This document shows positions 29,979-59,653 of a DNA stretch of 64,000 bases, piece by piece. This DNA is from Lophium mytilinum (taxonomy: Eukaryota; Ascomycota; Dothideomycetes; Mytilinidiales; Mytilinidiaceae): positions 1,459,032 through 1,523,031 of the forward strand of contig MU004182.1 in the NCBI GenBank assembly GCA_010093605.1, written 5' to 3'. The translations under genes and the position numbers were made by a program. Position 1 is the first letter of the stretch. The number at the start of each line of letters is the position of its first letter. The notes under the pieces are model-generated. The model ran no database searches, was not told the DNA's origin, and worked only from the letters and a program-made list of their open reading frames with translations.

Positions 29979-30500
29979 TGATTATGTATCAAAGAAGGTG
30001 AACGGCTTCGCAAGTGCGCTACCCTCACTGAAAATGACAAAAGTATCCGAAGATGTAAATGTAGACTAGTTCTAAATCCGAGGACAGCGTTCGGCGATAG
30101 GAATGGCCTGCTGTAGCTGACAAATGGAGTTGTGGCAGCATGGCTAAAGTTGTAATCTCCGGCCCCTACAAGTCACGTAAACACTCCATAAGTTCCTTGA
30201 AGGTGATGTTTGTTATCCTGAGAGATGATCGATGCCATGTTGAGAAGCCCGCGCGGGTGTTCCGATTGAGATTAGTGCATGTGCTAAAATCAACTATCGT
30301 CGCCGCTAGTCAGACACGCTAACGTGCAGCCCGCGTAATCCAACCCGATTGCATTCACAAGCTGCTAGCGATGGACTCCGCAGCTCACAGTTGGTTGATA
30401 CTGTCGCCGTATTAGCAAGAATTCCGAGTCCTAATATCTTTCAAATTACAAATCATCTCGGCCGGTCAAAATGCAGCTCCGGAGAGCTGGTTGTTGCATC

Positions 30501-30506
30501 TATAAG
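30501..30506 (+). promoter_or_regulatory. TATA-like site upstream of the NmrA-like gene
   Basis: TATAAG lies 100 bp before the ATG at 30601, in a spacing usual for fungal TATA elements. This is position-based inference. Confidence 0.35.
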
Positions 30507-30600
30507 AGCGGCCGAGCTCCGTTCTTTTGAGAGCCTTCACATCGGTTTCTTCTTCTTTACCAATACATCTATCTTTTTACCCCATCCCAAACAATACGAA

Positions 30601-31818: not shown

Positions 31819-33636
31819 TTAGACAAGGAGGATCGGGGATCCCAAGATGCTGAAACAAGATGCGAGGTTCCAGGTGGTGGCGTTCAGATGTGGTCTGATC
31901 CGCCATACCTTCTCCATAATTTGTCTTGCATCATCCAGTGCCCCGGCTGTGTAAACTTTGCCTAGGTTTGAGTATAAAGCTGTGAATGATGACTCCTCCG
32001 ATTCCAGGGCTAGACAGCCAGCGACACACAGTGGCCAGGCGAGAGCACGCAATTGGTATGATGGAACAGTGTGAAGCAGTTCGATGATCTGAGCAACATC
32101 AGTCCTAACTTCCGGATTAGATGATTGCCAGCCAGAAACCACGAGTGTGAGGTACAGCTGTGCTGCATGTGCCCAAATTAGAGTTGGTATGGAGGAATCG
32201 GAAGGATTGGGACCGGTGCTAAATGGCACGCGGTAGTTCGGATGCGATGGAAGACTGGCGGTAGAATTGATGTGAATTTCGAGGATGTTGTCCTTCAAAC
32301 TATTGCCAATGACCGAGGCGCGGTTAACCAGTTCTACGACAGAGAGGCTAGTAGCTTCGGTTCGCTCGCGTTTCCATGAGTTCAAGGCGGATATTTCGGC
32401 GATTGTAGTCACGACCCAATTGCGGCACCCAACAATGGTCGAGAGTCGGATTTCGGCGCCGCTCACAACAGACGTCCCGTCATCTATTCGAGCAAGAATA
32501 TCCGGATAATAGCTGATAAGTCTTGGTGATTCTTGAACTGCCGTGCTTGCCACAACATCGATAAAGATCAGTAAGCCGGCACAGAATCGAAAGCCGGCCT
32601 GGTCGGGTGACCAGATGTAATTGTCACGCCCGGGCTTGGTCCATAAAGGCTGTCCAATCTCTAGAAGTACCGCGGCGAGTTTTGACTGGCCTTGACCTTG
32701 GTAAGATGGATCAGAGCAGGCCATGATTTCCCCAAACAAGGCAAACGCAGGAGGGAGATGGGAATTCCATGGGGCAGATTTTCCCAATGCAGATTCGAAT
32801 ATGAGGACCTGGACGACGCTCCCCAAAATCTCTACTCTTTCCAGTTTTGTTGCCGGTGCGCCTTTCGAGTTTAGGTCCAGTGCTAAAATGTCTGTTCTGA
32901 GGCTGTCAAAACATTTGTTAGTCTGCTGCTCCACTTCTTTCCAGCGCAGTTGTTTACAGTCTGCGTGTTCTTCGCCACTGTCATCATCGGTGAGGGCCAT
33001 GGTGAAAAAGTAACATGATAGGCTAACAATGGAATGATATGCAATCTTGCTCTTCCCCAACAACAGCAGTAACCAGCTACGGCCTGTTTCGAGTACAGCG
33101 GGGCGATAGAATGGAAAAAGGGCGGGGAAAACGAAGTCGAGGTATTTCATAATGAAATCTGTTTCAATGGGAGAAGGTTGCCCCGCACTATCCGAGCGGG
33201 GATGATGTTGATGATCATAAGGCAGCAAGGTAAAAGGCGCAAGCTCATATGAAGTCGCCGAGTTGCTCGCTGGAGCTGATGTCTGGTCGCCGGACATGAC
33301 AGAGCCGATAGGTTCGGTCGACAACAGGTTGCTGGATACCATGATATTGGAAATGATGTTGAAATGATGAGAAGTGGTGTCATTGGTGACTCTGCTGGAG
33401 GCCTTTGATTTCTCTCTTCGATATGCTGAATTCCGCTTAATTTCATTCTTAAGCCATACGGTTCTCTGTCGTTGTTGCTCCTCTCCATCCATCCAAGCTG
33501 GCTTCGGTCCGTAATCACAGGAGATCTCTAGGCTGTCACAGTCCCCGCATCTTGGTCGAAGCTCGTCGCACTTTTTTCGACGCAGTTTGCACGTCCAACA
33601 GCCATCGATCTTTGCATGCCTTCTCGTAGCCGACAT
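31819..33636 (-). CDS. Zn2Cys6 transcription factor with fungal-specific domain
   Basis: One exon encodes 605 residues. The DNA-binding domain lies at residues 13-40 with spacing C-x2-C-x6-C-x6-C-x2-C-x6-C (CWTCKLRRKKC...CGDCDSLEISC), followed by a basic/Gln-rich linker (QQRQRTVWLKNEIKRN). The body, from about residue 150, matches the fungal_trans_2 type of regulatory domain (IETDFIMKYLDFVFPALFPF and the WLLLLLGKSKIAYHSIVSLS region). The end, ARQIMEKVWRIRP...LGSPILLV, is the usual conserved C-terminus of this type. The target genes are not known. The neighbouring, convergent NmrA-like gene is a plausible target by position only. Confidence 0.93.
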   Translation of the reverse strand: MSATRRHAKIDGCWTCKLRRKKCDELRPRCGDCDSLEISCDYGPKPAWMDGEEQQRQRTVWLKNEIKRNSAYRREKSKASSRVTNDTTSHHFNIISNIMVSSNLLSTEPIGSVMSGDQTSAPASNSATSYELAPFTLLPYDHQHHPRSDSAGQPSPIETDFIMKYLDFVFPALFPFYRPAVLETGRSWLLLLLGKSKIAYHSIVSLSCYFFTMALTDDDSGEEHADCKQLRWKEVEQQTNKCFDSLRTDILALDLNSKGAPATKLERVEILGSVVQVLIFESALGKSAPWNSHLPPAFALFGEIMACSDPSYQGQGQSKLAAVLLEIGQPLWTKPGRDNYIWSPDQAGFRFCAGLLIFIDVVASTAVQESPRLISYYPDILARIDDGTSVVSGAEIRLSTIVGCRNWVVTTIAEISALNSWKRERTEATSLSVVELVNRASVIGNSLKDNILEIHINSTASLPSHPNYRVPFSTGPNPSDSSIPTLIWAHAAQLYLTLVVSGWQSSNPEVRTDVAQIIELLHTVPSYQLRALAWPLCVAGCLALESEESSFTALYSNLGKVYTAGALDDARQIMEKVWRIRPHLNATTWNLASCFSILGSPILLV

Positions 33637-34031
33637 AGTTGTCGCCAGTCAACAGTTTTTGGCAAGATGAGGAGCCACGCCACGGCGGTGAAAGGCCGAA
33701 GCGGCCTGAAGCGCAGATATCCTGGCACGCAAGCTGTGAGCGTGTAACGTCGTGAACAGAACACCGAGACAGGGGCTGCAGGCACAGGCTGCGCGATTAG
33801 ATTACATTTTAAGCTACATCAAAGAGGTGTCTCGTATACTAGTCTGGTCTGGTGGTTGCTAAGATCAGATAGTATTGAAGTCGGCGTCCCGGAGCGCAGC
33901 GCAGGGCCACGCCGAGGCGCTCCTTCCCACCCCCCCCCCATTCTCACCGGGTGCACCATAACTGCACCCATTCTACTTACTATATTAAAGAATAGACGGA
34001 CGTTTTCATCATCTCTTTTCCTTCATCCCAG
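33637..34031. other. Upstream region of the Zn2Cys6 gene
   Basis: The 395 bp contain the promoter of the regulator and the left flank of a transporter relic. A C-run (CCCCCCCCC) lies around 33931. No gene was recognised. Confidence 0.45.
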
Positions 34032-36481: not shown

Positions 36482-37605
36482 ATGGGGCAACTCAATTCCC
36501 GCAGCCAGGCCCCGCTGGAGGACCCAGCTCTTGGCGGCTCCATTCGCCACATTGAGGAACTACGACTCTTCGAGCTTGGAGACGCTCGATATCTCGCTGT
36601 GCCTCTAGCTCGGGTTAGCCCTGTTCTTTGCTCGAGATGACCAGTCACTCACCTGCTCGTAGACAGTTCAGCTTCCATCCATTGCTGAAACTCCCACTGG
36701 CAAAATTTCTGTGACAGTCGTGTTAACTCCTCAGGGACAAATTCCGAACCAAACTTGGGTCGACAATAACTTCAAGGAGTGGTATGCGTCTGACGATGTC
36801 TTTCACCACGACTTCCTTGCCAACGTGGTGTTCGTCAGCGCGGAGACAGAGCCAGCTGGCCTCACTCAAATGTCTGATCACATGCGCCATACCTGGAATA
36901 CGAGCTGGTGTACCTCAGTTCCTCAGACTTCAGTGGGACCAGAAGTATCATCGGGCCCGTATGTATTTTGGAACGGTCAGCTTTGCAAAGCATACAGACT
37001 CTACGACGATACGAACCAAGCTTTCATCGTAGGGACGAAGCCCAAAACATCTACAGGGTGAGTCGAGTCATCATCTCAGATCATCCTACTGCCCTCGGCC
37101 GCTGACTTTTGGAGCAGTTTTGAGAATCTGCGCGTGAGTGGTGATTTTTACACGACCTTGAGCTTAGCTGTTCCATCACGCATCCCTCAGGATCGCAGCG
37201 CGATGAGACCTCTAGACGGGCTCCGATTTGCAGTCAAAGATGTATTTGAGATCGAAGGACTTCGGACTACTGCAGGATGTCGAGCGTACTACAGCCTCTC
37301 AAAACCCGCATCGAAAACCGCCCCAACCGTACAAAAGCTGATTGACGCCGGTGCCCAATTGATCGGGACGCTGAAACTGGGCTCTCTAATCACGAGAGAA
37401 GAGCCTACTGAGTCGACCGACTACCAGGCACCTTTCAATCCACGGGGAGATGGCTACCAGTCTGCTTGGAGCAGCAGTGGAGGAAGTGGTGCTGCTATTG
37501 CTGCGTACGATTGGCTCGACTTCACGATCAGTACAGATAGTAGGACTCGTAGCTTCACATGAGTTGTGAAATGTATGCTAATTTGGTACTAGCTACGGGA
37601 AGTAG

Positions 37606-37609
37606 CCGC
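37606..37609. repeat. Target-site duplication, left copy (CCGC)
   Basis: The four bases before the left LTR equal those after the right LTR (53590-53593). Removing one copy restores the amidase frame exactly. Confidence 0.8.
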
Positions 37610-37775
37610 TGTTGGCCCCTACTACGGGTGACGTTCTCTTAGTCAGCATAGGCCCGTGCACGGCAATGCCTTCTTCCCTACACTCTCTATATTAGCTAGT
37701 TATTATCTATACTAATAATATAACTTTCTATATAATACCTATATACTACCTTATAAGCTATATTAAGCCCTTTTA
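37610..37775 (+). repeat. 5' LTR, 166 bp
   Basis: It begins TGTTGGCCCC and ends CCCTTTTA where the partner has CCCTTTCA. It aligns gap-free over 166 bases with the right LTR, almost all differences being C/T or G/A. Its first 70-80 bases look unmutated and the rest is AT-rich. The sequence after it (TTTAGTATC) could be a mutated primer-binding site, TTTGGTATC. Confidence 0.92.
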
Positions 37776-38859
37776 TTTAGTATCTAATAAGAGGCTTCTC
37801 TAGCTTAATCTAGAGGTTTAAAATTCTAATACCTAAGAGAAGAAAGTTCTATAGTTTACTTAAGAGAGTTCTTAATACTATTAGAGTAAGAATTACTATT
37901 CTATAGTTTACCTTACTAATTAGATATTAATAAGGGTAATAGTTAATATTTAAGAGAGTTTTTAGACTAGTACTACTACTAACTTTAGAGAGAGCTCTCT
38001 AGTTAACCTTACTAGAAGAATCTAGGTAAGTTATTACTATAAAATAAAAGCTTATAATATCTAATAAATTTAAGTAAATATATAGTATCTATTAATAAAT
38101 AAATAAATTAACTTATACTTTCTAGTATCTAAGTTAGAAATAAAATACCCCTCTAAAAAAAGAAAGGTAACTCTCTATATTCTAGGTAGATTATTAGTAA
38201 CTAGAAGACGCCTTACTACTAAGTTAACTAACTATTAACTATAGAACTAATAATATAGAATTTAGAGAGCTACTATTTATAGTAAGCTTACTATCTACCT
38301 CTTCTTCTTATAGATAGCCGCCTAAGTACTATCTATTAGAGTACTAGCTTAATAAGGCGGATAAATTAGAAATTTTAGAATATATTAGTTATAGTAGGAA
38401 ACTTATAGATAAACCTATAGAAACTACTAGAGCTAGAATTATAGTTCTATAAAAGAATAATTTAGCTAAGATAGATAAGTCTATACTCTTTTCCCTTATA
38501 CTACCTAAACTATTTATCTTAATTCTAGAATAACCTAATACTATAATATTAAATAAGTTATTAGAGACTAAGTAAATTAATTTATCTATACTTAACCTTT
38601 CTAATAAAACTAAAACTATACTTAATCTATCTTCTACTTTAGATATTAATAACTATATAGTTAATATTAGCGGCTTAATAAAGGTATTCTATAACTAGAG
38701 TACTCTAAAGCTAGAAGAGCTAGCTCTACTAATACTACTAATAGTTAAGGTAACTACTTTATTATCTACTACTTCTATTACTTCTATAGAAGCTATTATA
38801 GTAATAGTAACTCTATTTCTCTTAATAGATAGTATATTACCTATCCCGCCTTTCTATAG

Positions 38860-41800
38860 TAAACTTAGAGAGAATCTAGCCTAGTTTCTCTACTATATAA
38901 GGCTCTATATTAGGCTAATATTAAAGTAATATAAAAATAAGAAAGATAAGAAAGAGCTATATCTAATAGATTTAATTAGCTATCTAGAAGGGAAGGTAAA
39001 GAAATATTATAATATAGTAAAGAGTAAAGCTAAAAGAAATTACTCTCTATTAGTTACTTTATTAGAGGAATAGATAAATATATAGTATAATAATAGCGCA
39101 GTTATAAAAGCTATTAAAGAGTTCTAGCAGCTCTTTTAAGGAGACTATACTATAGAAAAGTATATTAAATATACCTAAAAGATCTATAATATATTATTAC
39201 TAGTATTAGAAATATCTATCTTAGTAGTAAAAAGAATAGTAAAGAAGGTAAAATTAGAAAGAATTTATAGTATTGCGGGCCTAATATTATTATTAAGACT
39301 AACCTTTAACTTTAATAAAGCGGCGAAAGTATTACTCTTTTATAATATAAATAGTATTATTATAAGTCTTAATACTACTTAATTCTAACCCTTATTAATA
39401 AGTGTAGAGATTCTAAGAACTAAGAATAATTAGATATTCCTTATAATAGAGTTCTTAACTAAAGTAGTATAGTATCTTAGTACTATTAGGCCTCTATAGT
39501 TAATATTAGATCTAATTCTAGCGCTAAAGCTAATAGTAACTTATCTACTCTAAAACGCCTATCTATTCTAGAACTAATACTATAGTAAGTAAGACTAGAA
39601 AGCTCCCCTATTTACTACTACTATTAATAAGATACTAGCTAATCTAGAGGGATATATCTACTATAAGTACTATAAGGGTAGCTGTTTTAAATCTAACTAC
39701 TTTTATACTACTTTTAGTCTAGAGGAATATATATAATAAAAGAAGGTCTATAACTTAGGGCGTAAGGTAGCTAGTATTTTATAAAACTAAGGTTATAAGC
39801 CTTAAGTTATTATAGTAGCCTAACTTAAACTTTTAAATATAAATAATAGTAAAGATAATTTACTATAGGTATATATTTAGTCTATTAGCACCTAAGGTTC
39901 TAGAGTTAAAAAAGTAGTTAGGTATATCCTATAGTTATAACTAAGTAATAAGAGTAAAGAAAAGAGTAAGACTTCCTAATACTCTACTAAAGAGGAATTA
40001 TCTAGCAATAAATTATTAATAGCTAATATTATAGTAAATAAAAATAATAAGAGAGTAAGAGTTAAAGTAGACTTATTAACTAATTATAATAATAACTATC
40101 TAACTACTAAAGCTACTAAAAATATAAGATTATAAGTACTCTCTTTAAGAAAGTATACTATACCCTTCTAGTTTTAGATACTTTTTAAGAAGTTCTCTAT
40201 AGCTTCTACCGCTACTAATACTATAGTAGAAAAGGATAAGGTGTCTAAAACTACTAGTTATAAGTTAAAGTATAGTTCTTAGCTAGCTAAGTTTTACTAT
40301 ATCCGCGGTATAGAGAACGCCCCTCTCTTTAACCCTATTAAGGCTATGCTATAGAGGAAAATTAAGGCTAAAAATAATATTTAATAGGGTTACCTCTTAG
40401 ACTACTCTCTAAGGCTTACTAGAATAATTATATAAGCTTTAGTTTATCCCTCTAGTAAGTTAAAAGTAAAGTTATTATAACCTATAGTTAATATAAAACC
40501 TATTAAGGTTTCTTCTATCTCTATTAAAAAAGTTTTAGTATCTAGTAAAATTAAAAACTTCTATACTAAGGGTAGTATTTAACTTAAGTACTCTTTATCT
40601 TATAGAAAGAAATACTCTCTTAATTTTATTCTTCTAGATAGCGCCTCTAAGATAAACTTAATTAATTCTATAACTATAGACTAATTAAAGCTTACTTACT
40701 TACTATAGTAGCCTATAGAGATCTTAGTTACTAATAGTAGAATATATATTATTATAGATTTTATTAAGATAGACCTTACTATTACTAGCGTTTAAAGAAT
40801 TATTAACGCTTAGGTTATTAAAGGAAAGACTAACTATACTATACTTCTAGAATACTTATACCTATACTCTATAGTAGCGGAAGAAAGTTATTAAGACTAA
40901 GTAGTAACTTTTCTTAAAGTAGATAGAACCTGCGTACTAGTCCCCCGGGTTAATTATAAAATAGGTAAACTTATTAATAGTAGCTAAGTAAAGCCTTCTA
41001 GTAACTAAAAAGATAACTTTAACTATAACTCTAGATTAAAGGCTAATTCTAAAGCTAAGGTAGTAGACTAAGGGAACTATTTTATAAAATAAGCGTCTAG
41101 AAAGGCTCTATCTAACTCTAATAATACTAAGGAATTATTCTAGTTAGAAAAAGAGTTATATTACTAGATCTACTAAAGTCTAGCGGTAAATAGACTTATC
41201 TAGTTAACCTATATTTATTTAAAGTTAGTTATAATAAATTACTAAGTTAAGAAGAGATAGATAGATTATAGTTAATAAAGTTTAAGATATAAGCTAGAGA
41301 TATAAGGGCGTAAAGGGCCGCTTAGATTAGAGTTTCTAGTATTATTTAGAAACTTAAAGCTAAGGGCGCTACTATATACTAGAAAAGAAAATAACTATAG
41401 TAGATAGACTATCTAGAATTCTTAAACCTTTAAGTTCTACTACTTACTTTAATAACTTAGTTAAGGCCTTTACTTAGACTACTACTAATGCTAATACTAA
41501 CGGTAGCACTAATAATATAGAATCTAGCTATTCTATTAAAAAGAATTCTTAGTATATCTAGACCTATAATTCTAATTATAGTTCTATAGTATTCTACCTA
41601 TTAGATAGGGAAGTTTCTTTACCTAATAACTTTCTAGGTTACTATTCTTAGGCTATAATCTATTAAATTAAGTAATAAGTAATATATTACTAACTAGTTA
41701 AGTCTATAGAAGAAGGAATAATAACTTATTATTTAGCTTATATTAAAAGGAGTAGAAAGCTAAGCTATTATATTAGAGCTATTAATATACTAAAAGTACT

Positions 41801-43230
41801 TTAAGAGTTATATAATATTTATAGTTACTTTACTAATTAAATAGTTTTAAAGGTTACTATTAGAAAGTACTATTAGCCTATAAGGCACGCTAATATTATC
41901 TACTTCTACTAGTCCTGCTATAATTATTAAATATTAGGGCCGCTATAGGTAATATCCCTTTTACTATCTATCTTAGAACTGCAACCTTTAGACCTAATTA
42001 GTATAGATTTTCTAGAATCTATTTCTCTAGTTAGTAATAATAGAATAAAGTATATCTTAATTATAGTAGACTACTTTTTATACTATATCTAGGTAGTTAT
42101 AATACTATAAGTATAATCTTACTAAGTCTAGAACTTTATTAAAGGTTAAATTATTAAAGTTTTTAGCTTTTCTTATTCTATATACTTAGATAATAGTATA
42201 TAATTTACTAGAGGGGAGTTCCCTAGAGAGATAAAGAAAAATAGCGTTACTATACTATACGCCCCTTCTAGTTATTCTAGCTTAGTTAGTTTAGTAGAAG
42301 TATATATTAAGCTTATTAGAAAAGGGCTCTAAGCTAAACTTTAGAAAGATCTATTCTAGATTTACTAATAGAATAAACTTCTTCTAGAAATTACTTACGC
42401 TATAAATACCTAAGTACTCTATTTCTAAGAATTTACCCCGGCTTAACTTCTCTTTAGGTTTAATCTAAGGTTTAAGAATAATCCTATATTAATTAAGAAT
42501 AAACTATAGTTAACTACTATTTAATTAAATCTAATAGAGGATAGAAATAATTTTTTAGTAGTAGAAGCTCTATAGTTTAAGGCTAGACTAGCTAAAATTA
42601 ATAAAATGCAGTTATAAGTAATAATAAAGATGCTAAGAGCGTAATAAAACTTAGTAGAGAAGGCTAATTCTAAGTAGGTTTCTCTAGAGGTAGATAACCT
42701 TATTCTACTATACTAATACTTTCTTAATACTTAGAAAGAAAGAAAGTTAGAACTAAGATAGACGGGCCTATATAAGGTTTAATACTTTATAAATAATAAG
42801 AGCTTTATATTCCTCTAGAATATCTATACTAGTACTATTATTAGATAATACTACTTAGATAATCTTAAAATCTATCTCTCTTAGAATAATAGATTAAAAG
42901 AAGATTATATCTAAGTAATTAATAAATCTTATAAGATAGATACTACTTAGGCGGATATACTACCTCTACTAGATAATAAGAATCTTAATACTAAGGCGGA
43001 GTTAAAGGAGAAGGATATCTAGACCTTTAAGGCCCTGCTTAAAGGCAACTTATTTAAAGAGTAAGAATATAAATAGCTAAAAAACCTAGTAAATTACCTA
43101 GGCTAAGACGCGGATAAACCCCTTCTATTATACTAGATTTATTAAAAAGTAAATCTCTTTTAAATATAGATCTAATAGAAATTACTTATAAGAAATATAT
43201 TTCTATATAGTAATTAAAGGAAATAGTAGT
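38860..43230 (+). pseudogene. Degraded gag-protease-integrase polyprotein of the LTR element
   Basis: The frame is read through RIP stops. At 38.87-39.9 kb it is gag-like: a helical domain (LEENLAQFLYYIRLY) and then a Cys-containing knuckle-like motif near 39.67 kb. Around 40.64 kb LDSASKINLIN corresponds to a retropepsin DSG motif. At 41.87-42.4 kb an integrase appears: a Cys pair in QSCYNYQ, then LDLISIDFL, VDYFS, YLDNSIQF and VEVYIKLI, matching the D, D and E positions of the catalytic core. The tail (NLKIYLPQNNRLKEDY) continues to about 43.2 kb. Between protease and integrase there is only about 1.2 kb, and I find no reverse transcriptase YxDD-like motif in it. It resembles Ty3/gypsy integrases most, but the family is not certain. 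Confidence 0.7.
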
Positions 43231-46200
43231 AGGGAGAAACTATAAGTATACTAGGTATTATTAGATTAATTATTCTTATTAATTTTATACTTATAGTTAT
43301 AGTAATAGCATTTAGGTATTAAAGAAATATATTTTACTTAGAGAGAGACTGTAATATTAACTGTAAAACGGATAATAGTTTATTAAGAATATTAACTTAG
43401 TTATTAGAGATATTAACTGTAGGGTAAATAATAGTTAATAATAAGTTAGTATAAATAAAGTCTAAGATTAGTAGACCATAATATAGCTTATAAAATATCT
43501 CTCTTTAACCTCTATATAATATATAGTAATAGTAGATATAAGAGTATATAAAAGATATTAAGTATATTCTTCTTTTCTAATTATATAGCTATAGAGGTTA
43601 ATAACTATTATTAAAAGTATAGTTAATATCTTTATTATATATATAAGAATATTATTCTTATACTTATAGCGCTCTCCCTTCTTTTCTAGGCGGGAGCATA
43701 GTTATAGCTCTTAAGTAGAATAATAGTAGTTATATATAACTATTAAGTAATACTATAGATAATATTATTATTAAATAGTAACCTTATTAAATAAGGCGAA
43801 TACTATAAATAACCCTATATTATTTAATTATAGAGAATAGATAAGTAGTATTTAAATTAACTTTAGTAATACTTCTTAAGTTTATCTCTTTTAATTAGAT
43901 ATTTAATACTATCTACTCTCTCTTTAGTTTCTTTATAGTCTATAGTAAATAGATATTCTCTTAAATTACTAGTTCTCTATTATACGCTCTATATTATACT
44001 AAAAGCTTAGCGCCTACTTTAGAGTAATATAACTATCTTACTAATCTATAGAGGCGGTAACTACTAAAATCTATATACCTTACTCTACCTCTTAGACTTC
44101 TAAGCTTTAATAACTTCTTAATTTAGACCTTCTTTCTTAACTCTTACTCTATTTAGGCTATCTTTGCGCCCTAGTTATAACTAATTAAGCCTTAGATTAG
44201 TAAGAGATTATAGATTTAAGTCTAAAGTTTATTAGAATCTAGTTAAAATTACTCTTACTTCTCTAACGCCTACTAGGTTAATCTCTACTATAGAAGTCTA
44301 GACGCTCTAATTTTACTTCTTACTATTTTAGTAATATTTACTCCTCTAGTATAGAGAAGATAAATATTAGTAATACTATAGATAACGCTGCTATAAGTAA
44401 TAGTTCTTAAGAGAAGGGCCTTAAAGAGAATAGAAAACCTCTATAATTTATCTTTAGAGGAGATATTAGTATACTTATAGTTAATTATTATATTAAGTAT
44501 AAGAATCTACTATTTCTATTTATAGACCTATTATAATTAATACTAAAATCTATAGTTACTAAGATACGCCTATCCCCTCTACGCGCTTTACCTGCTAAGA
44601 AAGAGTTAGAATTAAAGGAACTTAAGCTAATTAGTAGTCTAGAAACTAGCTATATTCTTACTAAGAGTTCTAATATTAATAAAGCTATTCTAGAAACTAT
44701 AGAAAGTACTTTATCTTTAGAATATACTACTTCTAGAAAGAAGTAAAAGGTTACTCTTAAATAAGCTATACCTATATATAGCGCAGTAAAGAGAAAGGTT
44801 TCTTTTAGTACTTAAGCTAGAAAGCTATCTAGTATTACTCTAAGTAGGGTTAAGTTTTTAAAGAAGTACTTAAATATATTTACTACTCTAAAGATTATAA
44901 AAAAGGTAGCTTTAACTTTAAAGAAGTCTACCTTCTTAACTAAGACTATTAACTATAATGCGGTCTAAATACTTAAAGCTATTAAGTTTAATCTCTTAGA
45001 GTAACTACTAGATTTAGTTATTAATTAGCTAAATCTAAATAAGAAAAGAAAATCTTCTATACTAAAGCCCTATATATATATAGCTTAAAAAGCTTCTAAA
45101 GCTTCTATTACTAAGGCTAGTACTAGTTCTACTATCTTAAACTCTATTTCTTAGTCTATACTAATTAAGAAGGCTAATAAGAAAGCTTCCCCGCTATTTA
45201 AGAAAGAGGAGGACGCTAATAATAAGAATATAATAGATATAAGGCCTAATTTTTCTTATAGCCTAGGTACACTCTTTATATATCTAGGTTAAGATATTAG
45301 TATAGCTATAGTTAACTTTCTAGAAGCTTAGTACTTTAATAGCCCTAATATAGTAATAGAAAAGGTTATAGTAAAGCTAGAACTAGATAGAAATATAGTT
45401 AAGAATTCTAGAAAGTTTTAGAAAGAGGCTTTTTCTACTTTTAAGGTAGTACTTCTATTTAAAGTTTAATAAGCTATTACCTACCTCTTAGCTATTACTA
45501 GAAATAACGTTAATATAATAAGGAAAATAGCAAAGAAGGGCTAGGCGGGTTAGATAAAGAAGAACTTAAGTACTTATAGACCTAGAATAGATATATATTT
45601 TACTACTTAGAGTAATTTCTAGAAGTCTAGCAGTCTTTATAGTTATAGCTAGAAAGTATTAGAAATTAGTTAAGATCTCTTTAATACCTTATAGAATAAT
45701 ACTAAGTTCTATACTACTACTAAGTCTAAGGCTTCTTTTATAGTTACTACTTCTAGAGCTTATATAGAATAAGATTCTTATATTATCTAGTAGAATTAGA
45801 ATAAGAATAGATTAATAACTTATAATTTAATCTTTAAGAAGAGCTTTAACCCCTTATATTTAGTATAGATTAATTTAATATTTTATAAGTATACTATTCT
45901 ATATACTATTAAAGATAGAGCTATTACTCTAGAGTAGTTAGAACTTACTAAGCTAGGTAAGGTCTAGAAGTAACTTAATATAGTAGCTAAGAGTATTAGT
46001 TAGTAATAAGTTAATATAGAGAATATTATGCTTAAGGCCTAAAATACTAAGATAGCTAAATATAAGCTTCTTAACTATTAGATCTCTACTTAGGTAAAGA
46101 TTATTTCTTAGCTAGTATTATTATTATTATTATTATTAAATTCTATTACGCTAGTATAGCTCCTATTAGAGTTTATATAGCTATTCTATCTAGGCTAATT

Positions 46201-46990
46201 TATAAGGGGAAACTATTTACTACTAGATAGTATTTAGGTAAAAACTTTATCCTCTATTATATCTAGTAATAGGCGCCCTTCTTCTTTATATTTTACTATA
46301 GGGGATATATAGTAGGTCTATAAGAACTACTATAGAATAAGCTATTAAAATATATCTTTCTATATCTATTCTAGAAGGTTTATTATTATTCTTCTAGGTT
46401 TAGGCTAAGTAGAATCTAGATATAAGGCTAGTATAGAATTAGCGTAAGGGCCCGCGTATAAGTAGTATACTTATAGGGCCTTTATTTAAGGTAATAAGGT
46501 AAAATAAATAGTAGCTATATAGGCTATTAGAGATAGAAAAGCTATATAGTATATAGATAGTATATAGTAGAGATATATAGAAAGTATATAGTTTATAAAT
46601 AGGCTATAAGAGTAGAAGAGCTATAAGTAGCTATATAGAGTTTATAGCTATAGTAGTATATATAAGCCTCTATAGTATAGCTAATAGCTATAAAAGGGCT
46701 AAAAGTATAGAGTATATAGTTTATAGTCTATAATTAGAAAGTATATAGCTATTTATAGTAAGTATAAGTTCTTATAGTATAACTAACTAATAGTAAAAGA
46801 AAGAAAGCCGCGTATATATACTATTATAAAGTAGATAGGCTATTTAGAAATAGAAGAGCTATAAGAGATAGAAAGTATATAGAAAGTATATATTATAGAG
46901 TATATAGTAGAGACCTAAAGCTAACTATCTATACTAAGTACTAGTTAAAAGAGGGCGCTAAGGCCTACTATAGTATAATTAGGGGGTAAT
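43231..46990. other. RIP-mutated AT-rich stretch, unassigned
   Basis: This stretch is inside the inserted block. A plus-strand frame at about 44.1-46.0 kb reads as a Lys/Ser-rich protein when RIP stops are ignored, but I do not recognise it. At 43350-43480 short segments retain TG and CA (TGTAATATTAACTGTA and ACTGTAGGG) and repeat the motif TATTAACTGTA, so they may be the edge of a further nested element. A (TTA)n run is at 46114-46138. Confidence 0.4.
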
Positions 46991-47111
46991 AGTAAGGCTA
47001 TAGATAATAGTAAGGCTATTAGTAGTAGTAAGGCTATTAGTTATAGTAAGGCTATAGGTAATAGTAAGGCTATTATTTATAGTAAGGCTATAGGTAATAG
47101 TAGGGCTATAG
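46991..47111. repeat. Tandem repeat, 18 bp unit, about 6.7 copies
   Basis: Units begin at 46991, 47009, 47027, 47045, 47063, 47081 and 47099 with the shape AGTAAGGCTATAGGTAAT and variants. A related motif (TAGTAAGGCTATAGGTTA) recurs around 50660. Confidence 0.9.
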
Positions 47112-47216
47112 TATTAAGTAGAAGGGCTAGATCTACTCCCTTTCTATTTCTCTTACTATTAAGAGGTAGGGTAGTAGGTCTATTCTCTATAGAAACTATT
47201 TAGCTACTATCTTAGG

Positions 47217-50200
47217 TTTTTTTTTACTTTTATATATTTTCTTATATATCTAAGTTTTTACTTTTTTAAATAGTTTACCTTTACTCTTTATATGCCTCTT
47301 ATAGTTTATTACTATATAGTATAGTAATTAGAGGCTATACCTATAGAGGTAGGCTAGTATTAGATAGCCTAGTATCTATATATAGTATAGGTATCTATTA
47401 AGCCCTATATACTCTATTTATAGGTTTATAAAAATAGTACTTTTAACCTTTATAAGCCCTTTATATATAGTCTTCTATTATTTACTCTATTTAGTATTAA
47501 GGGCTAGCGTTAGTAGCCTATACTATTCTATTTTATAAAAGAACTTCTATACCTTCTTCTACCTTTCTTTATATTTATATTTAATTATAAATTACCTTAA
47601 GTACTTATAGGCTTTATTTAATTTATCTTTATATCTAGTATATAACCTTATAGCCTTTACTATAAGATTATAAAGTATATTATAGCAGCTAGAGCTATAC
47701 TTTAGCCTTATAAATAGTCTATAGTAGGTATAGATTTCCCTATATATATTACTATATACTATTTTAATATACTAGCGTACTAGCCCTTTATATATATAGT
47801 CCGCGTAAGCTACTATAAATTTCTCTAGTTTTAGCTAGAGTAGTAAGTATAATATTTTATATTCTAGTACTATAGTACTTATAGTCTTATATACTTCTAA
47901 AATTCTCTAGAGGTATTAGTTCTAGGCTATTTTAAGCTACTTAATCTTTATTTTACTAAGCTACTCTAGTATACCTAATATAGTATACTAGGTAGTATAT
48001 CTATATATAATAGTAGGCTAGACTACTACTAAGTATATAAGGCGTACTTTTCTAAAGCTAGCGCCCTAAGTAGATACTATAAGCTATATAAGTACCCCTA
48101 TCTAGGTTATAGCTTTATTCTTTATAATACTAATATATAGGCCCTATTTAAGCTTTAAGTCTATCTATATTTCTAGTACTTTTAGATCTATTATAGGGCC
48201 CTCTATAAAGCCTTATATATTAACTATAGCTTTTAGATTAACTTCTTTATAGGCTCTTATAAAGTATATTAGATAATATTTATCTAGTATAAATACTATA
48301 CTATACTTTCTTACCTATTCTATACATCTATTATAGGCTCTTTTAATAGCTTTATAGTTTACCTCTATAGTTCTACTATATATAAGAATATTTATATTAT
48401 TTATAAACCTATAGGCTATTATATTACTATTCTAGAGGGTTAGTAGTAGTATACTAGTAAAGAAGAAAAAGAGAATAGATAATAAGAAGAAGCTCTATAG
48501 AATACCTATAGTAACTATAATTAGTTCTACTATATAGTTTTCTATAAAGAGTCTAGTTATATAGTCTTATAGAAAGAACCTAGTAAATCTTATTATCTAC
48601 TTTAGTATACTCTAGACCTATAGATTATATATTATTTATTTATATAAGACTTAGTTAAATACTTCTAATATATCTAGGCTAAGAAGTAATACTATAAGCT
48701 ATAGGTTTTCTTTCTATATAGTATAGATTTATTCTATAAGAAGTTTAAGTACTATCTATATAAAGCGTTCTAGCTATACCCCTATTTAGCTAGGTAGTAG
48801 TATACTCTTTTTCTCTACTATTTTAGAGAGCCTTTTAGCTATAATATATTTAAATAGCTTACCTATTATTTCTAGTAGTATAATAGGCCTATAGGCCTTT
48901 ACTATTATATAGAATACTTTCTAGAGTTTATATAGAACTACTATAATTAATTCTTTAAAGGGGTAGAGATAGTATTCTCTATATAGGTACTTTATAAAGA
49001 AGTAAGTAAGTACTAGTACTAGTTATATCTTATACTTCTTTAAGAATCTATTTATAATTTCTATAATTCTAGAGGCCTTATCTAGCGTAATTTCTATTAG
49101 TACTAAGAGTATATTTTTTATAGTAACTTCTATAGAAGTAGTATATAGTTTTAGGTATTAGAACTCTTCTAAGTTAGATAGGTTAGCTTCTACTAGTAGT
49201 AGAAAGAACTATTTAGTAAGTATATATACTTTTATCTTATTATCTATATATAGGGTAGAGTTACCTAGCTAAAAGAGAGGGGGAAATTAAAGAGGGGGCC
49301 TTAATTTCTTTCTAACTATATAGCTCTATTTAGCTAGTTTCTATATATCTTTAGAGTTATTTATTACTTTCTCTACTATATAGTACTATGCCTTAGTACT
49401 CTCTTTCTATATAGCTCTTTTTTTATAGTTATATTAAACTTAGTATAAGATTTAGTTCTTTATAGAGTATAATAAGCGCTATATTCTATATACTTGCCTA
49501 GCTTATATACCTTTTCTAAGTACTTCTTAGTCTAGAATAGTAATATATATTATAAGGGCCGTATAATTAGTACTATAGTATTAATAGTAATTTTAATAAG
49601 TTAGTAGAGAATATATATAAAGTTATCTAGGTTTTCTTTTTCTTTATTATCTAGGGGGTTATTCTAGTTTTCTAGCTTAAGTAGTTAGGCTATAAGGTGC
49701 TTCTATATATTCTTTTATATAATATTCTTCTATAGCTAGTATAGAGGCTATTTAGTTACTAGTAGTAGTATAATATTAAATTCTATATATATAGGGCGGT
49801 AGTCTAAGTAATAGTTCTACTTCTCTTAAACTATATAGAATATTATATATTATATTAGCTATCTAGATATAAATATAAGGTTAATTATAGTCTACTATAT
49901 TTTTCTTATTTATATTTCTATACCCTTCTCTATAGCTAGAGTTAGGCCTACTTCTATTATAATATAAATAAGCTTCTTAGCTTACTCTTCTATACTAACT
50001 ATTTATATTTCTCTCTAGAATAGGTAGTATAGGTTTATATTACCTATAAGTATATACTCTACCTTTTTATATAGTATAGAGAGTAGTATAGCTATAATTC
50101 TATATAGCTTTAGATTATAGATATTATAAATTTAAATATTCTCTCCTCTAGCCTAGAGAAAGAGAGTAATAAGGTCTAGTAAGTAGTACTCTATAGTCTA

Positions 50201-52300
50201 TTAGCCTAGATTTAGGCACTTATTAATATATATATATATTCTAGTATTTAGACTTTCTCTATATAGTAGGTAGTATAATTTTATATATAGTAAGGTATAT
50301 TTCTAGATATTCTTCTATAGTTTTTATATAGCTAGCACTAATAGTTAGGGCTAGGCTGCCTTTACCTTCTTAAGAAACTCTTTTTAGGTTTCTTAGCTCT
50401 TATTAATATTATACTATATAATAGTAAGTATATTAGGTTACTCTAATATTAGGTATCTATAGAGTCTTTAGGGTTATTTATTATAGCCTAGCTAGCCTTA
50501 GTATAGAGCTAATAGCTTACTACCTCTTCTTTCTAGGTAGATAGTACCTAAGTTATATTAAATTATAATAGTCTAGTATTATTACTATAGGTTATTATCT
50601 AAGAGTAGTATAGTATTTTATAGGTAGGCTATAGAGTTTTATAGAAAGGCTACGGGCTATTATAGTAAGGCTATAGGTTATTATAGTTAGACTACTATAT
50701 TAAATAGAAAGTATATATTAATTAGGTAGTCTATATAGTATAGATAGACTATAGTACTTTATTTATCTTTAGTTATTTTAGGTTTTTATACGCGGTAAAT
50801 ATAGTAGATATAGAGGGGCGTTCTACTCTTTTTAGAGTACTACTATCTAGTATATTACTATTCTTAGTAGCCTTTCTCTTTCTACTTACTATATTAAGAG
50901 CTTATAATTCTATTATAGATTAGAATATTACTATACCCGGCGTACTATTAGTATTATTATTAGGGCTATTATTAGCCCTATAGTAGGTTAGCGCTATCTA
51001 CCTCTTTATATTAGCTTTTAGTTAAGTATTTTTTCTTATAGTGCACGCTATACTATATAATAGGTAGCTTCTCTTATAGTTAGTATACTTTTTAATACTT
51101 TTCTCTATGTATTATCTTATATTATAAGCTTCTACGCACGCTATATATACTGCCTTCTTCTTATAGTATTTAGTAATATATTTATAGCCCTAGTATTAGA
51201 AGTATTAGGTAGCTATAAAGCCTACCTTATACTTTATAGCCTCTAGTATATATTTATTCTATACTAAACTACTATCTATAATTTTATTTACTATTACCTC
51301 TATATCTATAGTAACTATAGCTAATAAGGCGCGCTATTTAAAGTTATTTCTAATAGCCTAGATTTAATTTAGGTGCTTCTATATAATTTTATATATAGCT
51401 AGGCCTAGATATAGTACCTTATTATCTTATATAATACTACTTTATAGTATTAGGTTCTCTAAGTCTATTTCTTTAGGTACTCTATATACCTTTAGAAGGA
51501 CCTTAGGTAGTTAGATTTATACTATTTTACCTAGAACCTTTATCTATTTCTTCTTCTTTAATAGGGCTTTCTTAGTAGTTATATCTAGTATATAGACCTT
51601 TATATCTTTACTCTAGAGCTTTCTAATACTATAGATCTTTATTATATTAGGCTCTTCTACTACTTAGAGCTTATAGATAATAGTTATATTTAAGTCCTTA
51701 TTTATTGCAGTGCGTTTCTTTTTATCTTTAATATATATAGTAATTTTATAGATAGTCTATATTATATACTCTCTATTTTCTATAGTCTTACTATTTCTTT
51801 CTACTACTACTACTACTATATAGGTTATTTCTTATATAGATAGCGCCTATATACTCTTTTATATTTTCTCTATTATTTTTATTATCTTTCTCTATAGTAT
51901 TTATTATAGGTCCTCTATAGTACCTAAGAGGCTAGCTAGTATACGCCTAGTAAAGTTCTAGAGGTACTTAAGAGTATTATTTATCTTAGGGTTAAAGAAT
52001 ATAGGCTTATTCTATAGAGAGTTCTATATACTATAGGCTTCTTTAATAAGTACTTAGACATTAGTATAGATATTCTACTTAGTCTTTAGTTAGTAGGTTT
52101 AGTTTTAGAATTATTATTAGTATTATTAGTAGTATTATTATTATTATTATTATTATTAATAATACTATATAATAGAGGTTATAATATATAATTCTACTAT
52201 AATACTACTAGTATAGCTTATAGAGCTCTAATACTATATATAAATATTTATAGAGCCTTAAGTAGCTTCTAAAGGCCCTTTTTAGGTTATATTTCTAAGG
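47217..52300 (-). mobile_element. RIP-degraded LINE (non-LTR retrotransposon), minus strand
   Basis: Reading the minus strand and treating RIP stops as lost CAA/CAG/TGG codons, a LINE is visible. At about 51.0-51.25 kb ORF1 has three zinc-knuckle-like sets (for example GYGHITKYYKKKA, then KKYTNYKRSYLLY with Cys changed to Tyr). At 49.9-50.6 kb the endonuclease shows YILIGNINL, where a catalytic GDFN is expected, and EYSR-like STIDLTF remnants. At 48.4-48.95 kb the reverse transcriptase shows AYRPI-LLE-GKLF, LSLDI, GIPQSSSLSPILFLFF and FVDDINIL positions. At 47.6-48.05 kb a C-terminal part with RLIY...VVQPTIIY and QNQYLQRILEVYK follows. A T9 run at 47217-47225 would be the poly(A) tail. The 5' limit is approximate and contains a (TTA)n run (52110-52165). 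Confidence 0.78.
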
Positions 52301-53423
52301 TGCTATAAATTTAATTATATTATATTTCTTTCTCTTAGCTAGTATTCTAAGTCTTAGAGTTTTAGAAGTTTATTAATAATTAAGGCTTAACTAAGAAGAT
52401 AATAGAGATATCTTAGCTTACTAGAGAGGTTACTATTATCTTAGCTAAGCTAATCTAAGCTAAGATCTTTTAGGAAATCTATAAGTTCTAAGGTAATTCT
52501 AGGCCCTTTTAGCTCTTTAATACTTATAAGAAGCTACTATATAACTTTAACTTTATAGATTATCTTACTAAGTCTACTAAGGCTATAGAATACTCTATTA
52601 CTTCTAGTACTAGTAGATCTTAGATAGAGACTAATAAGAATAGCTCTTCTTTTTCTCTTACTTAGCTCTAGAGAGATGTCTATTAGTTAGCTATTAAAGA
52701 AAGGGATTTCCTTAATAAGTTAGAGACTAATAATTTAGATTAGAAAGATAAAAAGAATACTAAATATTATTATATCTATAGGTAACTTAAGACTAGATAT
52801 TTTATTTAGCTTAGAACTTATTCTATTTAGAGTCTTATAGATTCTTAGATCTATTTTAAGATAGTTTCTTCTTTTAAATAGTAGCTTTTCTAGTAAATTA
52901 TCTCTAGAATATTCTTTTAAACTACTATAGATTCTAATTAACTACTTAGATCTAGAACTATTATTAAAATTATAGGTAATATCTTAAGATTTATAAACTC
53001 TTCCCGGTAGTTTAATACTTATTAGATTACTTTTTATTTTTAGGCTAAGAGAGTTTCTCTAACCCTTTAGTTTTACTATAATTATTTCTTTTCTTAGCTA
53101 GAAGGTAAACCTATAGGTTCTATATAAATAGTATATATTATTAACTATTACTAATTAATATTATAGGTTCTATAGATAATATCTTAATATTTCTCTACTT
53201 ATATAGATAGGTTCTCTTTTATTATTATAGCTAGGGGTTATAGAGTTTAGGTAAAAGTTATTTTATTAAGAGATTTTAGGTATAGGCTTTATAGTTTATA
53301 TAATTTATTAGCGTAGATATTTTTCTTCTTATTCTTCTCTTTTTCTTTTCTATTTTATAGGCTTAAGAATATTCTTTTAGTAGGCATTTAACTATATATT
53401 AAATAAGGTTTTTATAGAAGAAA
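52301..53423. other. RIP-mutated region before the right LTR
   Basis: AT-rich sequence with an open-looking plus-strand frame when RIP stops are ignored, not recognised. A purine tract (AGAAGAAA) directly precedes the right LTR and could be the polypurine tract. Confidence 0.4.
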
Positions 53424-53589
53424 TATTAGCCCCTACTATAGGTAACATTCTCTTAGTTAGTATAGGCCTGTGCACGGCGATGCCTTCTTCCCTGCACTCT
53501 TAGCATTAGCTAGTTATTACCTACACCAATAATACGACTTTCTATACAACACCCGTGCACTGCCTTGTGAGCTACATCGAGCCCTTTCA
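53424..53589 (+). repeat. 3' LTR, 166 bp
   Basis: It begins TATTAGCCCC (TGTTGG with RIP changes) and ends CCCTTTCA. It has exactly the length of the left copy. Here the inner half is RIP-mutated and the outer 90 bases look intact, the mirror image of the left LTR. Confidence 0.92.
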
Positions 53590-53593
53590 CCGC
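53590..53593. repeat. Target-site duplication, right copy (CCGC)
   Basis: It matches 37606-37609. The amidase frame resumes at 53594. Confidence 0.8.
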
Positions 53594-54869
53594 CGACCGG
53601 CTCTAGCCAATGGGTGCTTTGGACTCCGCGTGTCTAGTGATGCGCTTCCCTCTGAAGGCATCGTTCCATCTTGGTCGTGAGTATTTGTCAGGAATCTCTC
53701 CTATCGAATTGATGGTGTTGCCTAATGCGTATAGTTACTTCGACTCTCCGGCTCTCTATGGTAGAGACTTTTTGAAATTCGAGACTATCATCTGCACATG
53801 GATCAGCCTCGAGAAACAGACAGTGACTGAGGTTCGTATCTCGAAATGTTTCGCAGATCTAATCATCTAACGGCTCGCAGCTCCCCGTATCCCTTCTGTA
53901 TTTGAGCGACTTCTTACCTATCAAAAACGAAGTCCAGATGAAACTCATCGACGACTTTATTGCGAATGTTGAGTCGGCCTACAACATCAAAACCGAGAAA
54001 TTGTCCATTGCGGAGAAATGGAAAGCGACCAAGCCCGCTAATGTCGATGTGGTATCTATTCAAGAATATCTTCAGGATGTAGGAACCTTTCCCCAATCTC
54101 CCTTACTCTGCCAGTCCATTTTCGCTCATCAAAGCCAGGTTGGAGTCAACTCGTTCTGCTATGGGGTCTACCACGAGCTTGACTGGTTTTGGAATGAGTA
54201 CCAAGAGAAGTTTGACAAAGCTCCCTATGTCAATCCCGTCATGCAATGGAGATGGTGCGTTACCTGCTCGCTATCTGCACGGTTTGCTAAGGCCAAACAC
54301 AGGAAAGCCGCAGAAGATATTACGAAAGCACAGTACGACGACGCGGTAAATCGACTGCGTATTTACAAAGACTGGTTTCTTCAGGAGGTTATGCAGGTTG
54401 GGAAGCGTAACACCCTGATTGTATTACCCATAACATCCCAGGAGGTTGACTATAGGGATGTACCACCTGGGTAACTATGCTTCCCTTCGCTCATACCACT
54501 GCTAACACATGAAAAGACCGCCCACTGCACCGAATGCCTTTGATGGAATCTGGTTGGCACCGACGCTTGGCGCCCCAGAAGTATCTATCCCGAGTTTGTT
54601 TATCCAATCCATCCATTCATTTCATTACAGCTAAAAGTTCGAAGTTGGCGAAATGGAATATCACTCACGAGTGAGCGGGCGACAAGAACATCTACCTATA
54701 GTCGTCTCACTACTGGGTATTCCGGGTACGTGTTCGCATCAAAACTTCCAACGCCTTTGCTTACATTTGTCCTATAGGTTCGGACTTGAGTTTGCTCAAG
54801 ACGGTGCGCAAAGTGCTTGAGCACTCTGGGCGACCTCTTTCGGTCAAGGCTGGCTCGCGCATGTGGTAG

Positions 54870-55376: not shown

Positions 55377-57212
55377 CTAATATACGTATCTAAAATGCAA
55401 GTTCTCCTTGTCCGTGAAATCTTTGAAGGCCAATCGATCGCCTTCGCGCTCATCCAAACCCAAACCGTCGCGTCTCTTATTTTCGCGACGCAATAGCACA
55501 TAGAGCACCAATGACAACAGTATGGTAATACAATAGCTATGAACATGGTCAGCAGTCAAATACTTCCCATAGCGTGATTGGGGGTTCTCGTCTTCTTACC
55601 AGATGATCAACCCCGTCCAAAGCTCGGGATAATGCTCGCTCTTCGTCTGACTCTTAATCAACTGCGGCCCAATAATATTGCCCACACAATACGCCACAAA
55701 GACCGCCGAAGCCATGAAACTCTTCTTAGTCTCGCCGGCAATATTCCCGGCACCGAGCCCAACTATCAAACCCACGACTGGGCCAAAGAACCCAATCAAC
55801 GAGTACCCAACCACAGGCGCAGCGGGGCGATGCCCCCATTTTGACTTCCAGATTATCACGAATCCCGCGATAACAGGCAGACAGCAGAGTAGAAGCGTTA
55901 TGATCCGGATATTGCGGTACCGCGAGCACAGCCACCCCGTCAATGGTATTCCAACCGCGCAGACGGCGCCGAGCGGGAACTGGAACAGAATGCTCTCGTA
56001 CGACGAGAAGCCGAATGTCGAGACGATTAGGGGGCCGAAGCCTGCTACAGCGCCGTTCACGGTGTACCTGTTTCGATTTAGAAATGCTGGGTTTGCGGAA
56101 TAGAAGGCGCACTCACGCTGACGCCATGATCAGCGCAATGAGCCAGACTTTCACATCGCAGCACGCCTCCCATATCTGCGCTTTCTTGATCTTCGGCGTC
56201 TTGATCCCCGTCTGACCAGCCCTCAGCCTCTCGACCGCCACGATGCGCTCGTCGGGGGTCAAGAACCATGCGTCTAAGGGCGAGTTCGGCAGGAAGAAGC
56301 AGCAGATGCCGAAGAGGAACGTCAGTCCGCCTGCGAGGACGTAGATGTACTGCCAGGACTTCAGCGCGCCGCCGTCGATTTTCGCGAAGCCGTAGTTCAG
56401 GCCGCCGCCGATGATCGTGAACCACCCCGTGCCGGAGAACCACCAGCTCTGTCGGAAAGCTTGCTCGGATTGGGTGTAGAAGCCGCTGATGATGGTCATG
56501 AAGGCGGTGGGGATGAGGGATTCGGTTACGCCTAGAGGTGGTGTTGGTGATCTGTTCTTCGTCAAGTCTTTGGGGAGGTTAGGGGGTTGCGTACCTAGGA
56601 AGAAGCGCTGGACTAGGAGGCCTTGCCATGTGGTTACTCCTGCGGTGGAGGCGCATATCACGGCCCATAGCATCACGACGGGGCCGAGGACTTGGCGCGT
56701 GTTGAAGTGCTGCAGGCTGTATGTCATGGGGTAGGAGCCGACGAGCTGGCCGAAGTAGAAGATTGAGGTTGCCCAGCTCAAGCGGGAGGTGTCTGTCGTT
56801 GGGGGCGTGACGGAGGTGTTTTTCACGGAGAGTTTGAGGTCGGTGGTCATGCCGAATAGGACGGCGCTGCCCAAGATGGCCTACATAGATATGCGAAGTT
56901 AGAGTCTGTAGGTAATGAGATGAATCTCATGTGTACCTTGTCGTAGTAGACCAATCCGTATCCTACAGCATCGATTTAGCCTTGTAGGATGGTAAGTTGT
57001 GGAAGAGAAATTTGGTATGTACCAATTACCATCACCGGCATCAGAAACCAGTCGATTTTTCTCAAGACTCGTCGTTCAAGCCCAGCATCGATAGATCGTG
57101 CTTCCTCGCCCACCAGGTCCAGAGCCGTCATGGTGGCGAAGTCTTTTTCTGCGCGACCGCTGGCTGTGTCATTGGCGGGTGCATCTGCACTCGTGATATT
57201 TGCGATAGACAT
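55377..57212 (-). CDS. MFS transporter, allantoate permease (Dal5/ACS) family
   Basis: It is a plasma-membrane anion:cation symporter of the Dal5 type, a group that takes up allantoate, ureidosuccinate, vitamins or other organic anions. Exons 57212-57023, 56962-56937 (only 26 bp), 56880-56595, 56531-56117, 56067-55600 and 55536-55377 give 514 residues. Landmarks are RRVLRKIDWFLMPVMVIGYG at the first span, YGLVYYDKAILG, SLQHFNTRQVLGPVVMLWA, GVTESLIPTAFMTIISGFYT, and the mid-loop SPLDAWFLTPDERIVAVERL. The C-terminal half starts TVNGAVAGFGPLIVSTFGF. The tail NKRRDGLGLDE with following DFTDKENLHFRYVY is the conserved end of this family. About twelve membrane spans are expected. The substrate is not determined by sequence. 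The neighbouring broken amidase hints at use of amide or ureide nitrogen, but that is inference. Confidence 0.93.

Positions 57213-58088: not shown

Positions 58089-59653
<1,565 letters not shown>

Follow-up and report, generated by a model that had tools for sequence, protein, structure and literature searches.

An amidase gene of Lophium mytilinum interrupted by two nested transposable elements with a signature of repeat-induced point mutation

The window analyzed here is a stretch of 64,000 nucleotides of the Lophium mytilinum genome (positions 1459032-1523031 of contig C2, in an assembly of 43.2 Mb and 24 contigs), in which the two halves of an amidase gene lie on either side of a block of about 16 kb. 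Short GT-AG introns, the RIP-type signature described below and fungal gene families such as Zn2Cys6 and Spc7 mark the DNA as that of a filamentous fungus. The locus raises the question of what this block is, and how DNA so heavily mutated in the manner of repeat-induced point mutation (RIP) came to stand between two gene halves that remain open. The explanation that very probably holds combines a nested insertion of two transposable elements, RIP in the presence of a partner copy since lost, an amidase gene that is now inactive, and a recent date of insertion.

The amidase gene and the insertion site

The block (37610-53589) lies in a coding exon, with the break after codon 319, two codons past the probable nucleophile Ser317 (codon 37601-37603). 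At the left junction, between 37609 and 37610, ...AGTAGCCGC is followed by TGTTGG, and at the right one, between 53589 and 53590, ...CCTTTCA is followed by CCGCCGACCG. The gene parts and the ends of the block are the following:

36482-37609, plus strand: amidase gene, left half (exons 36482-36613, 36672-37057, 37118-37539 and 37593-37609; 319 amino acids, C-terminal end TTGSSR)
37606-37609, no strand: target-site duplication CCGC, left copy, from the junction sequence
37610-37775, plus strand: left terminal direct repeat, LTR-like (long terminal repeat), starting with TGTTGG
53424-53589, plus strand: right terminal direct repeat, ending with CTTTCA
53590-53593, no strand: target-site duplication CCGC, right copy, from the junction sequence
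53594-54869, plus strand: amidase gene, right half (exons 53594-53676, 53735-53831, 53881-54254, 54303-54470, 54517-54593, 54645-54725 and 54778-54869; 323 amino acids plus stop, first residues RPALANG)

The terminal direct repeats (166 bp, 133/166 positions identical, with TG at 37610 and CA at 53588) were searched across the assembly, and each matched only its partner. The target-site duplication and the matching repeat ends at both junctions, together with the location of the block within a 2.84-Mb contig, make an assembly artefact joining unrelated DNA extremely improbable.

Amidase exons on both sides were modelled from splice signals and reading frame. Once the block and one CCGC copy are removed, the joined coding sequence comprises 1929 nt, i.e. 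642 codons plus a stop codon (54867-54869), with nine GT-AG introns, and a check of the joined exons for internal stops, frameshifts and splice-site losses revealed none in either half. The first-pass annotation of this DNA had already given the same junctions, block and CCGC duplication, the same residues at the two broken ends, and an insertion beside the nucleophile of an otherwise intact gene, all of which agree with the junction sequence and with the exon model, in which K213, S293 and S317 are present. Its coding length (1869 bases, 622 codons) was not reproduced, being 60 nt shorter than in our model. The latter includes a 57-nt in-frame stretch, GTGAGTGG...CCCTCAG (codons VSGDFYTTLSLAVPSRIPQ), which was taken as a probable exon because its VPSR motif is aligned in three of the four paralogues fetched from the genome (L056, L057 and L058; the alignment of L055 begins downstream), and it is probably this stretch that had been spliced out before, explaining 57 of the 60 nt.

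The match of the left half to the Pfam family Amidase (PF01425; residues 200-319, profile positions 42-156 of 445, E 7.1e-15) extends to the final residue of that half. When part of the left half was compared with PDB, 29 sequences matched at E <= 0.001, with biuret hydrolase 6c62 ranking first; its DTNGSIR is aligned with DTTGSSR of the amidase. The right half alone matched no Pfam family, and its comparison with PDB resulted in a single weak row to a ribosomal protein (E 0.038). It is, however, aligned with the following part of all four fetched paralogues (E 1.3e-21 for L055, 6.7e-11 for L056, 1.0e-46 for L057 and a weak 1.2e-4 for L058), so that support for the PF01425 domain is direct in the left half and comes through the paralogues in the right one. 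In L055, L056 and L058, which carry DTGGSIR in place of DTTGSSR, the right match follows directly on the left one with nothing between them, and in L057 an unaligned stretch surrounds the junction, the match ending with DS at the first two residues of the motif. The predicted catalytic residues Lys213, Ser293 and Ser317 presumably form the Lys-cisSer-Ser triad of the amidase signature family. A genome search with the left half gave 16 match rows, 3 of them from the gene itself and 13 from nine other loci, hence amidase redundancy is possible. A literature look-up on the name of the amidase subfamily returned nothing useful.

Two nested elements within the block

The block consists of two nested elements, an outer one with LTR-type ends and, inside it, one of the long interspersed nuclear element (LINE) type:

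37776-46105, no strand: left interior of the outer element, RIP-saturated
46106-46119, no strand: inner target-site duplication, left copy, 14 bp (TCTTAGCTAGTATT), direct repeat at the breakpoint
46120-52332, minus strand: inner LINE-type retrotransposon, 6213 bp, 3' end at 46120 and 5' end at 52332, saturated with RIP, further copies elsewhere in the genome
52333-52346, no strand: inner target-site duplication, right copy, 14 bp (TCTTAGCTAGTATT), direct repeat at the breakpoint
52347-53423, no strand: right interior of the outer element, with purine-rich AGAAGAAA immediately before the right repeat

The limits of the inner element were evident from homology to the rest of the genome. When positions 44000-49000 were compared with the genome, 64/64 non-self rows started at or beyond window position 46091 (best 40 of 77 candidates), and in the comparison of positions 49000-53423 all 49 non-self rows, one of them a short inverted match within the block, ended at or before 52337 (best 40 of 54 candidates). 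Among fetched loci (matches longer than 300 bp, some loci overlapping one another), breakpoints clustered at 46107-46133 in 17/19 cases (L007-L025) and at 52326-52337 in 10/11 cases (L029-L039). The 14-bp direct repeat at both breakpoints was not matched by chance in 1500 random pairs of 60-nt pieces from the block, none of which reached 14 bp (longest, 13). The tail at the 3' end is a short (AAT)n at 46120, that is (ATT)n on the plus strand of the window, and a piece of reverse transcriptase (RT), which from its motifs we take to be of the non-LTR type, was located on the minus strand within 47.8-49.6 kb. The model used was built from three family copies and gave E 1.1e-97, a value that is not independent because these copies had been picked by DNA similarity. 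RVT_1 rows were likewise antisense in four copies of the family on contig C21, and a less mutated copy, L019, matched RVT_1 at E 1.1e-19. Based on the shared breakpoints, the 14-bp duplication, the (ATT)n tail and the antisense RT, the inner element was assigned to the LINE type; the 17 of 19 loci share its 3' end, and many matches stop inside the element, possibly broken by RIP or nesting. No terminal repeat pair was found at its ends beyond the 14-bp duplication. In L017, the only other copy checked for a target duplication, none longer than 10 nt was found.

Fungal LINEs include those of the Tad1 clade. The inner element resembles them in having an RT without LTRs, a short simple-repeat 3' tail and a target duplication longer than 10 bp; as a difference, no endonuclease was detected in L019, where a search of three minus frames found only RVT_1 and the 5' 1.8 kb of the element lie outside the locus.

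This structure bears on the first-pass reading of the block as one 16-kb retroelement, which was correct in that the block is real and has terminal repeats. The block as a whole is enclosed by a single terminal-repeat pair and shows RIP throughout, as would be expected of one element; nonetheless, multi-copy homology starts and stops at the internal 14-bp duplication, the inner part bears an antisense RT, and a second outer part was not found among the candidates scored, which together make a single retroelement highly improbable.

The outer element comprises 37610-46105 and 52347-53589 (8496 bp on the left plus 1243 bp on the right, ~9.8 kb). It would have inserted by a 4-bp staggered cut two codons past the nucleophile serine, and the minus-strand LINE-type element would then have entered it, producing the 14-bp duplication. 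As in LTR elements, its direct repeats have TG...CA ends and the flanking duplication of 4 bp falls within the 4-6 bp range. The purine-rich AGAAGAAA before the right repeat was examined as a polypurine-tract candidate, and the left repeat is followed by TTTAGTATC, which may represent a RIP-mutated primer-binding site of the TGG type; a tRNA scan of the window gave 0 tRNAs. Besides the terminal repeats, self-comparison of the outer element yielded only short AT-rich matches. No other copy of its interior was found in the genome among the best candidates scored, save one 139-bp match at 72% identity to the query 37776-44000 (window 43832-43969 with L027 1501-1639, at C1:196408-196546), accompanied by a collinear 31-bp match; this stretch of C1 has a normal G+C content (GC), and may be a relic of the outer element or a host sequence shared by both.

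Coding capacity of the outer element was searched with several models. The strongest negative comes from our own gypsy RT model, whose best rows in the window were no better than reversed controls and which, in a leave-one-out control, recovered 15/15 RT pieces of this genome from which all CA/TG had been removed by in silico mutation (E <= 5.7e-57); this control is optimistic for a distant family, as some training rows are close relatives, and the model misses four Copia pieces. The RVT_1 search of the genome (best 150 of 173 candidates scored, 150 rows) gave no match in the block, missing the inner RT too, and neither did that of RVT_2 (33/33 candidates scored), the Copia model being built from only four close members and thus little informative. 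The block was also translated in six frames, stops being written as X, and compared with Pfam at E limits of 1 or 5, which revealed no RT and only SMIM5_18_22 (E 0.018, 15.9 bits against a cut-off of 29.3), a weak negative because the inner RT was missed although the family model finds it. An integrase (rve) search gave 11 matches from 13 candidates, none of them in the block, with a sensitivity judged low because these are few for a genome with 150 RT rows. Coding frames were not singled out by per-frame stop counts.

Large retrotransposon derivatives (LARDs) carry LTRs around a long interior without pol. The outer element fits a LARD-like nature in its LTR-type ends, its long interior and the lack of a detected pol; it differs in that no other copy or autonomous partner with like LTRs was found, and its interior may once have coded, hidden by RIP. 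A coding element of another kind is also possible, since RIP may erase the coding signal or the family may be a distant one.

Several observations concern the LINE family in the rest of the genome. The 200 bp outside its 3' side had a GC of at most 0.32 in 16/17 loci (L007-L023), and those outside its right end of at most 0.35 in 11/11 loci (L029-L039), counts in which some loci overlap and some flanks contain further pieces of the family. L023 is the exception to AT-rich flanks, L017 and L019 are GC-richer further out, and part of the flank of L015 was counted as almost without G or C, perhaps due to masked letters. Flanks are often poorer in CA/TG than the LINE copies themselves, as if the family entered DNA already mutated by RIP. 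The family thus resides mostly in AT-rich, probably RIP-mutated DNA, and its entry into the outer element may have followed a first round of RIP. Contig C21 (614 kb) holds many diverged, less RIP-mutated LINE copies, mostly of 73-84% identity among the best candidates, as well as 11 of the best 20 RVT_1 rows, and may be a repeat-rich or accessory contig. Within the LINE itself, an 18-bp unit is tandemly repeated ~7 times at window positions 46986-47113, where a plus-strand open frame translates into repeats of six residues.

RIP in a single-copy outer element

The interior of the block has a GC of ~25%, with observed/expected ratios of 0.04 for CpA, 0.04 for TpG and 0.38 for CpG, and TpA/ApT is 1.82 in the block vs. 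0.68 and 0.78 in the flanks, in keeping with the first-pass description of the element as RIP-saturated. Among the 33/166 positions at which the terminal repeats differ, 29 fit C-to-T changes in CpA/TpG/CpG context and 32 are transitions, the changes not of RIP type being three transitions in other contexts and one transversion. The whole block would have been RIP-mutated to saturation at CpA/TpG and at many CpG sites, with RIP halting within both terminal repeats: in the left one, RIP-type changes set in at 37665 and CA/TG sites survive up to 37681, and in the right one, dense surviving sites begin at 53446 and RIP-type changes run out at 53469, which sets the limit at 55-72 bp inside the left end of the block and 120-143 bp inside the right end. 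Amidase DNA on both sides retains 105-145 CA+TG per kb; RIP did not clearly enter the gene. A literature search on RIP edges found nothing. The locus offers a sharp natural RIP boundary, with saturation inside and no clear trace in an adjoining gene where no selection should mask leakage.

RIP is known to act on duplicated DNA. The inner element exists in at least two copies, and no second copy of the outer one was found in the assembly. In Neurospora and other ascomycetes, RIP is described as C-to-T mutation, mostly at CpA, in repeats (PMC4352252, PMC11969663, PMC10787394); the block is alike in the type and main context of its changes and unlike in that CpG is depleted too (0.38) and one saturated component is single-copy in the assembly. 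For RIP to strike the outer element, a past nucleus would have had to carry one or more further copies, absent from the assembly, and the simplest reading is that past outer copies were lost by segregation. A precedent comes from Neurospora, where an 11-kb transposon of which both parents had one copy each was heavily mutated by RIP in second-generation progeny that carried it in duplicate (PMC11969663).

Alternatively, a second outer copy may never have existed, and RIP-type mutation would have spread from the LINE or between the terminal repeats via a Dim2-type pathway. The genome searches found no second outer copy, mutation fills the stretch between the repeats and fades within each of them toward its outer side, and work on Neurospora describes a pathway directed at single-copy DNA between repeats (PMC12543289, PMC11969663) and reports RIP of repeats down to 150 bp (PMC10787394). 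Spread from the LINE, on the other hand, would have to cover 8.4 kb on the left side and 1.1 kb on the right before halting near both outer ends, a requirement that makes such leakage unlikely, while the terminal repeats, of 166 bp and 15.8 kb apart, contrast with the 802-bp repeats and 729-bp linker of the tester constructs (PMC12543289); according to one analysis in the same paper, the AT-rich k-mer shift in tester crosses was seen in the duplicated sequence, the linker showing none. Matches to DNA_methylase PF00145 lie in three places of this genome. On balance, this alternative is unlikely, and its particular form, in which a single-copy element with 166-bp repeats was saturated without a second copy, the repeats (or the nested repeat) acting as trigger and limits and leaving the host gene clean, is likewise unlikely. 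If the outer element truly never had a second copy, the locus would bear on how RIP-like mutation is triggered in single-copy DNA. The PF00145 search gave 4 rows in all (C4:951200-952137, C9:1580320-1581492 and C9:279457-279777), which are RID/DIM-2-type candidates.

Age of the insertion and fate of the gene

If translation ran on from the left half, the product would gain CWPLLRVTFS before a stop 10 codons into the left repeat, so that the amidase gene is presumably inactive. The first-pass annotation had seen a tension between a young insertion and a RIP-saturated element, which is not supported, as RIP can mutate a repeat heavily within few generations, so that RIP load does not serve as a clock; outside RIP contexts, only 4/166 repeat sites differ. 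RIP operates in the sexual cycle (PMC10787394). A rough clock was set with the non-RIP repeat differences, assuming equal neutral rates, indels at 1/10 of substitutions and 36 splice bases. With 1, 2 or 4 events in 166 sites, 0.94, 1.88 or 3.76 disabling changes are expected in the gene, and the probability of finding none is 0.39, 0.15 or 0.02, respectively. The insertion would thus be recent enough that neither gene half has taken a further disabling change. As to the proposal that the gene was either hit recently or needed recently, open halves are compatible with a recent insertion, which suffices by itself; recent need has no separate support, since an open frame of 1929 bases is unsurprising in a recent insertion.

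Selection could also have kept the halves, each as a functional small gene rather than a decaying pseudogene. Neither half has a stop, frameshift or splice-site loss, and the formation of new small genes from split loci is deemed possible in a study on Pyrenophora teres (PMC5915480). Still, the left product would have the triad but lack the C-terminal half, and with a neutral probability of no decay of 0.02-0.39 selection is not required; we regard this explanation as very unlikely.

A recent nested insertion, followed by RIP with a lost partner copy, is the preferred explanation, and some points weigh against it. The evidence comes from the assembly of one strain and from DNA alone, and the genome DNA searches scored the best candidates (40/77 for the 44000-49000 query, 40/54 for the 49000-53423 query), so that LINE copy numbers are lower bounds. 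Given that neither RT nor integrase was detected in the outer element, it is the ends that argue for its LTR nature. TA reaches 70 per kb in the 200 bp to the left of the block vs. 32-41 further left, and CA+TG falls to 105 per kb in the 200 bp to the right vs. 120-140 further right, both stretches including an intron; slight leakage of RIP into the gene may have occurred. Finally, the repeats also differ at four positions outside the RIP pattern, three of which are neighbours and may have arisen together; if all four were independent, the probability of no decay would be 0.02 and the gene would be better kept than expected, suggesting a younger insertion, chance, or some constraint.

The split of the amidase is an ordinary type of event, a clean new instance of gene fissuring by transposable elements. 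The "genomic fissuring" of the Pyrenophora teres study (PMC5915480) is alike in that a transposable element in coding sequence splits a gene and leaves fragments that are still coding-like; the insert here differs in being a nest of two elements, and, whereas RIP leakage into neighbours is discussed for that species, no clear leakage into the gene was detected. One detail is odd, namely that an outer element now unique is so heavily mutated by RIP. A gene broken by a transposon nest with coding-like fragments also misleads gene counts.

Other genes predicted around the amidase include the following:

30310-30993, plus strand: NmrA-like protein
31822-33648, minus strand: Zn2Cys6 transcription factor
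55599-56880, minus strand: MFS transporter
58123-58788, minus strand: GH18 glycosidase

A protein of the Spc7 family is also encoded in the window. A metabolic neighbourhood around the amidase is possible.

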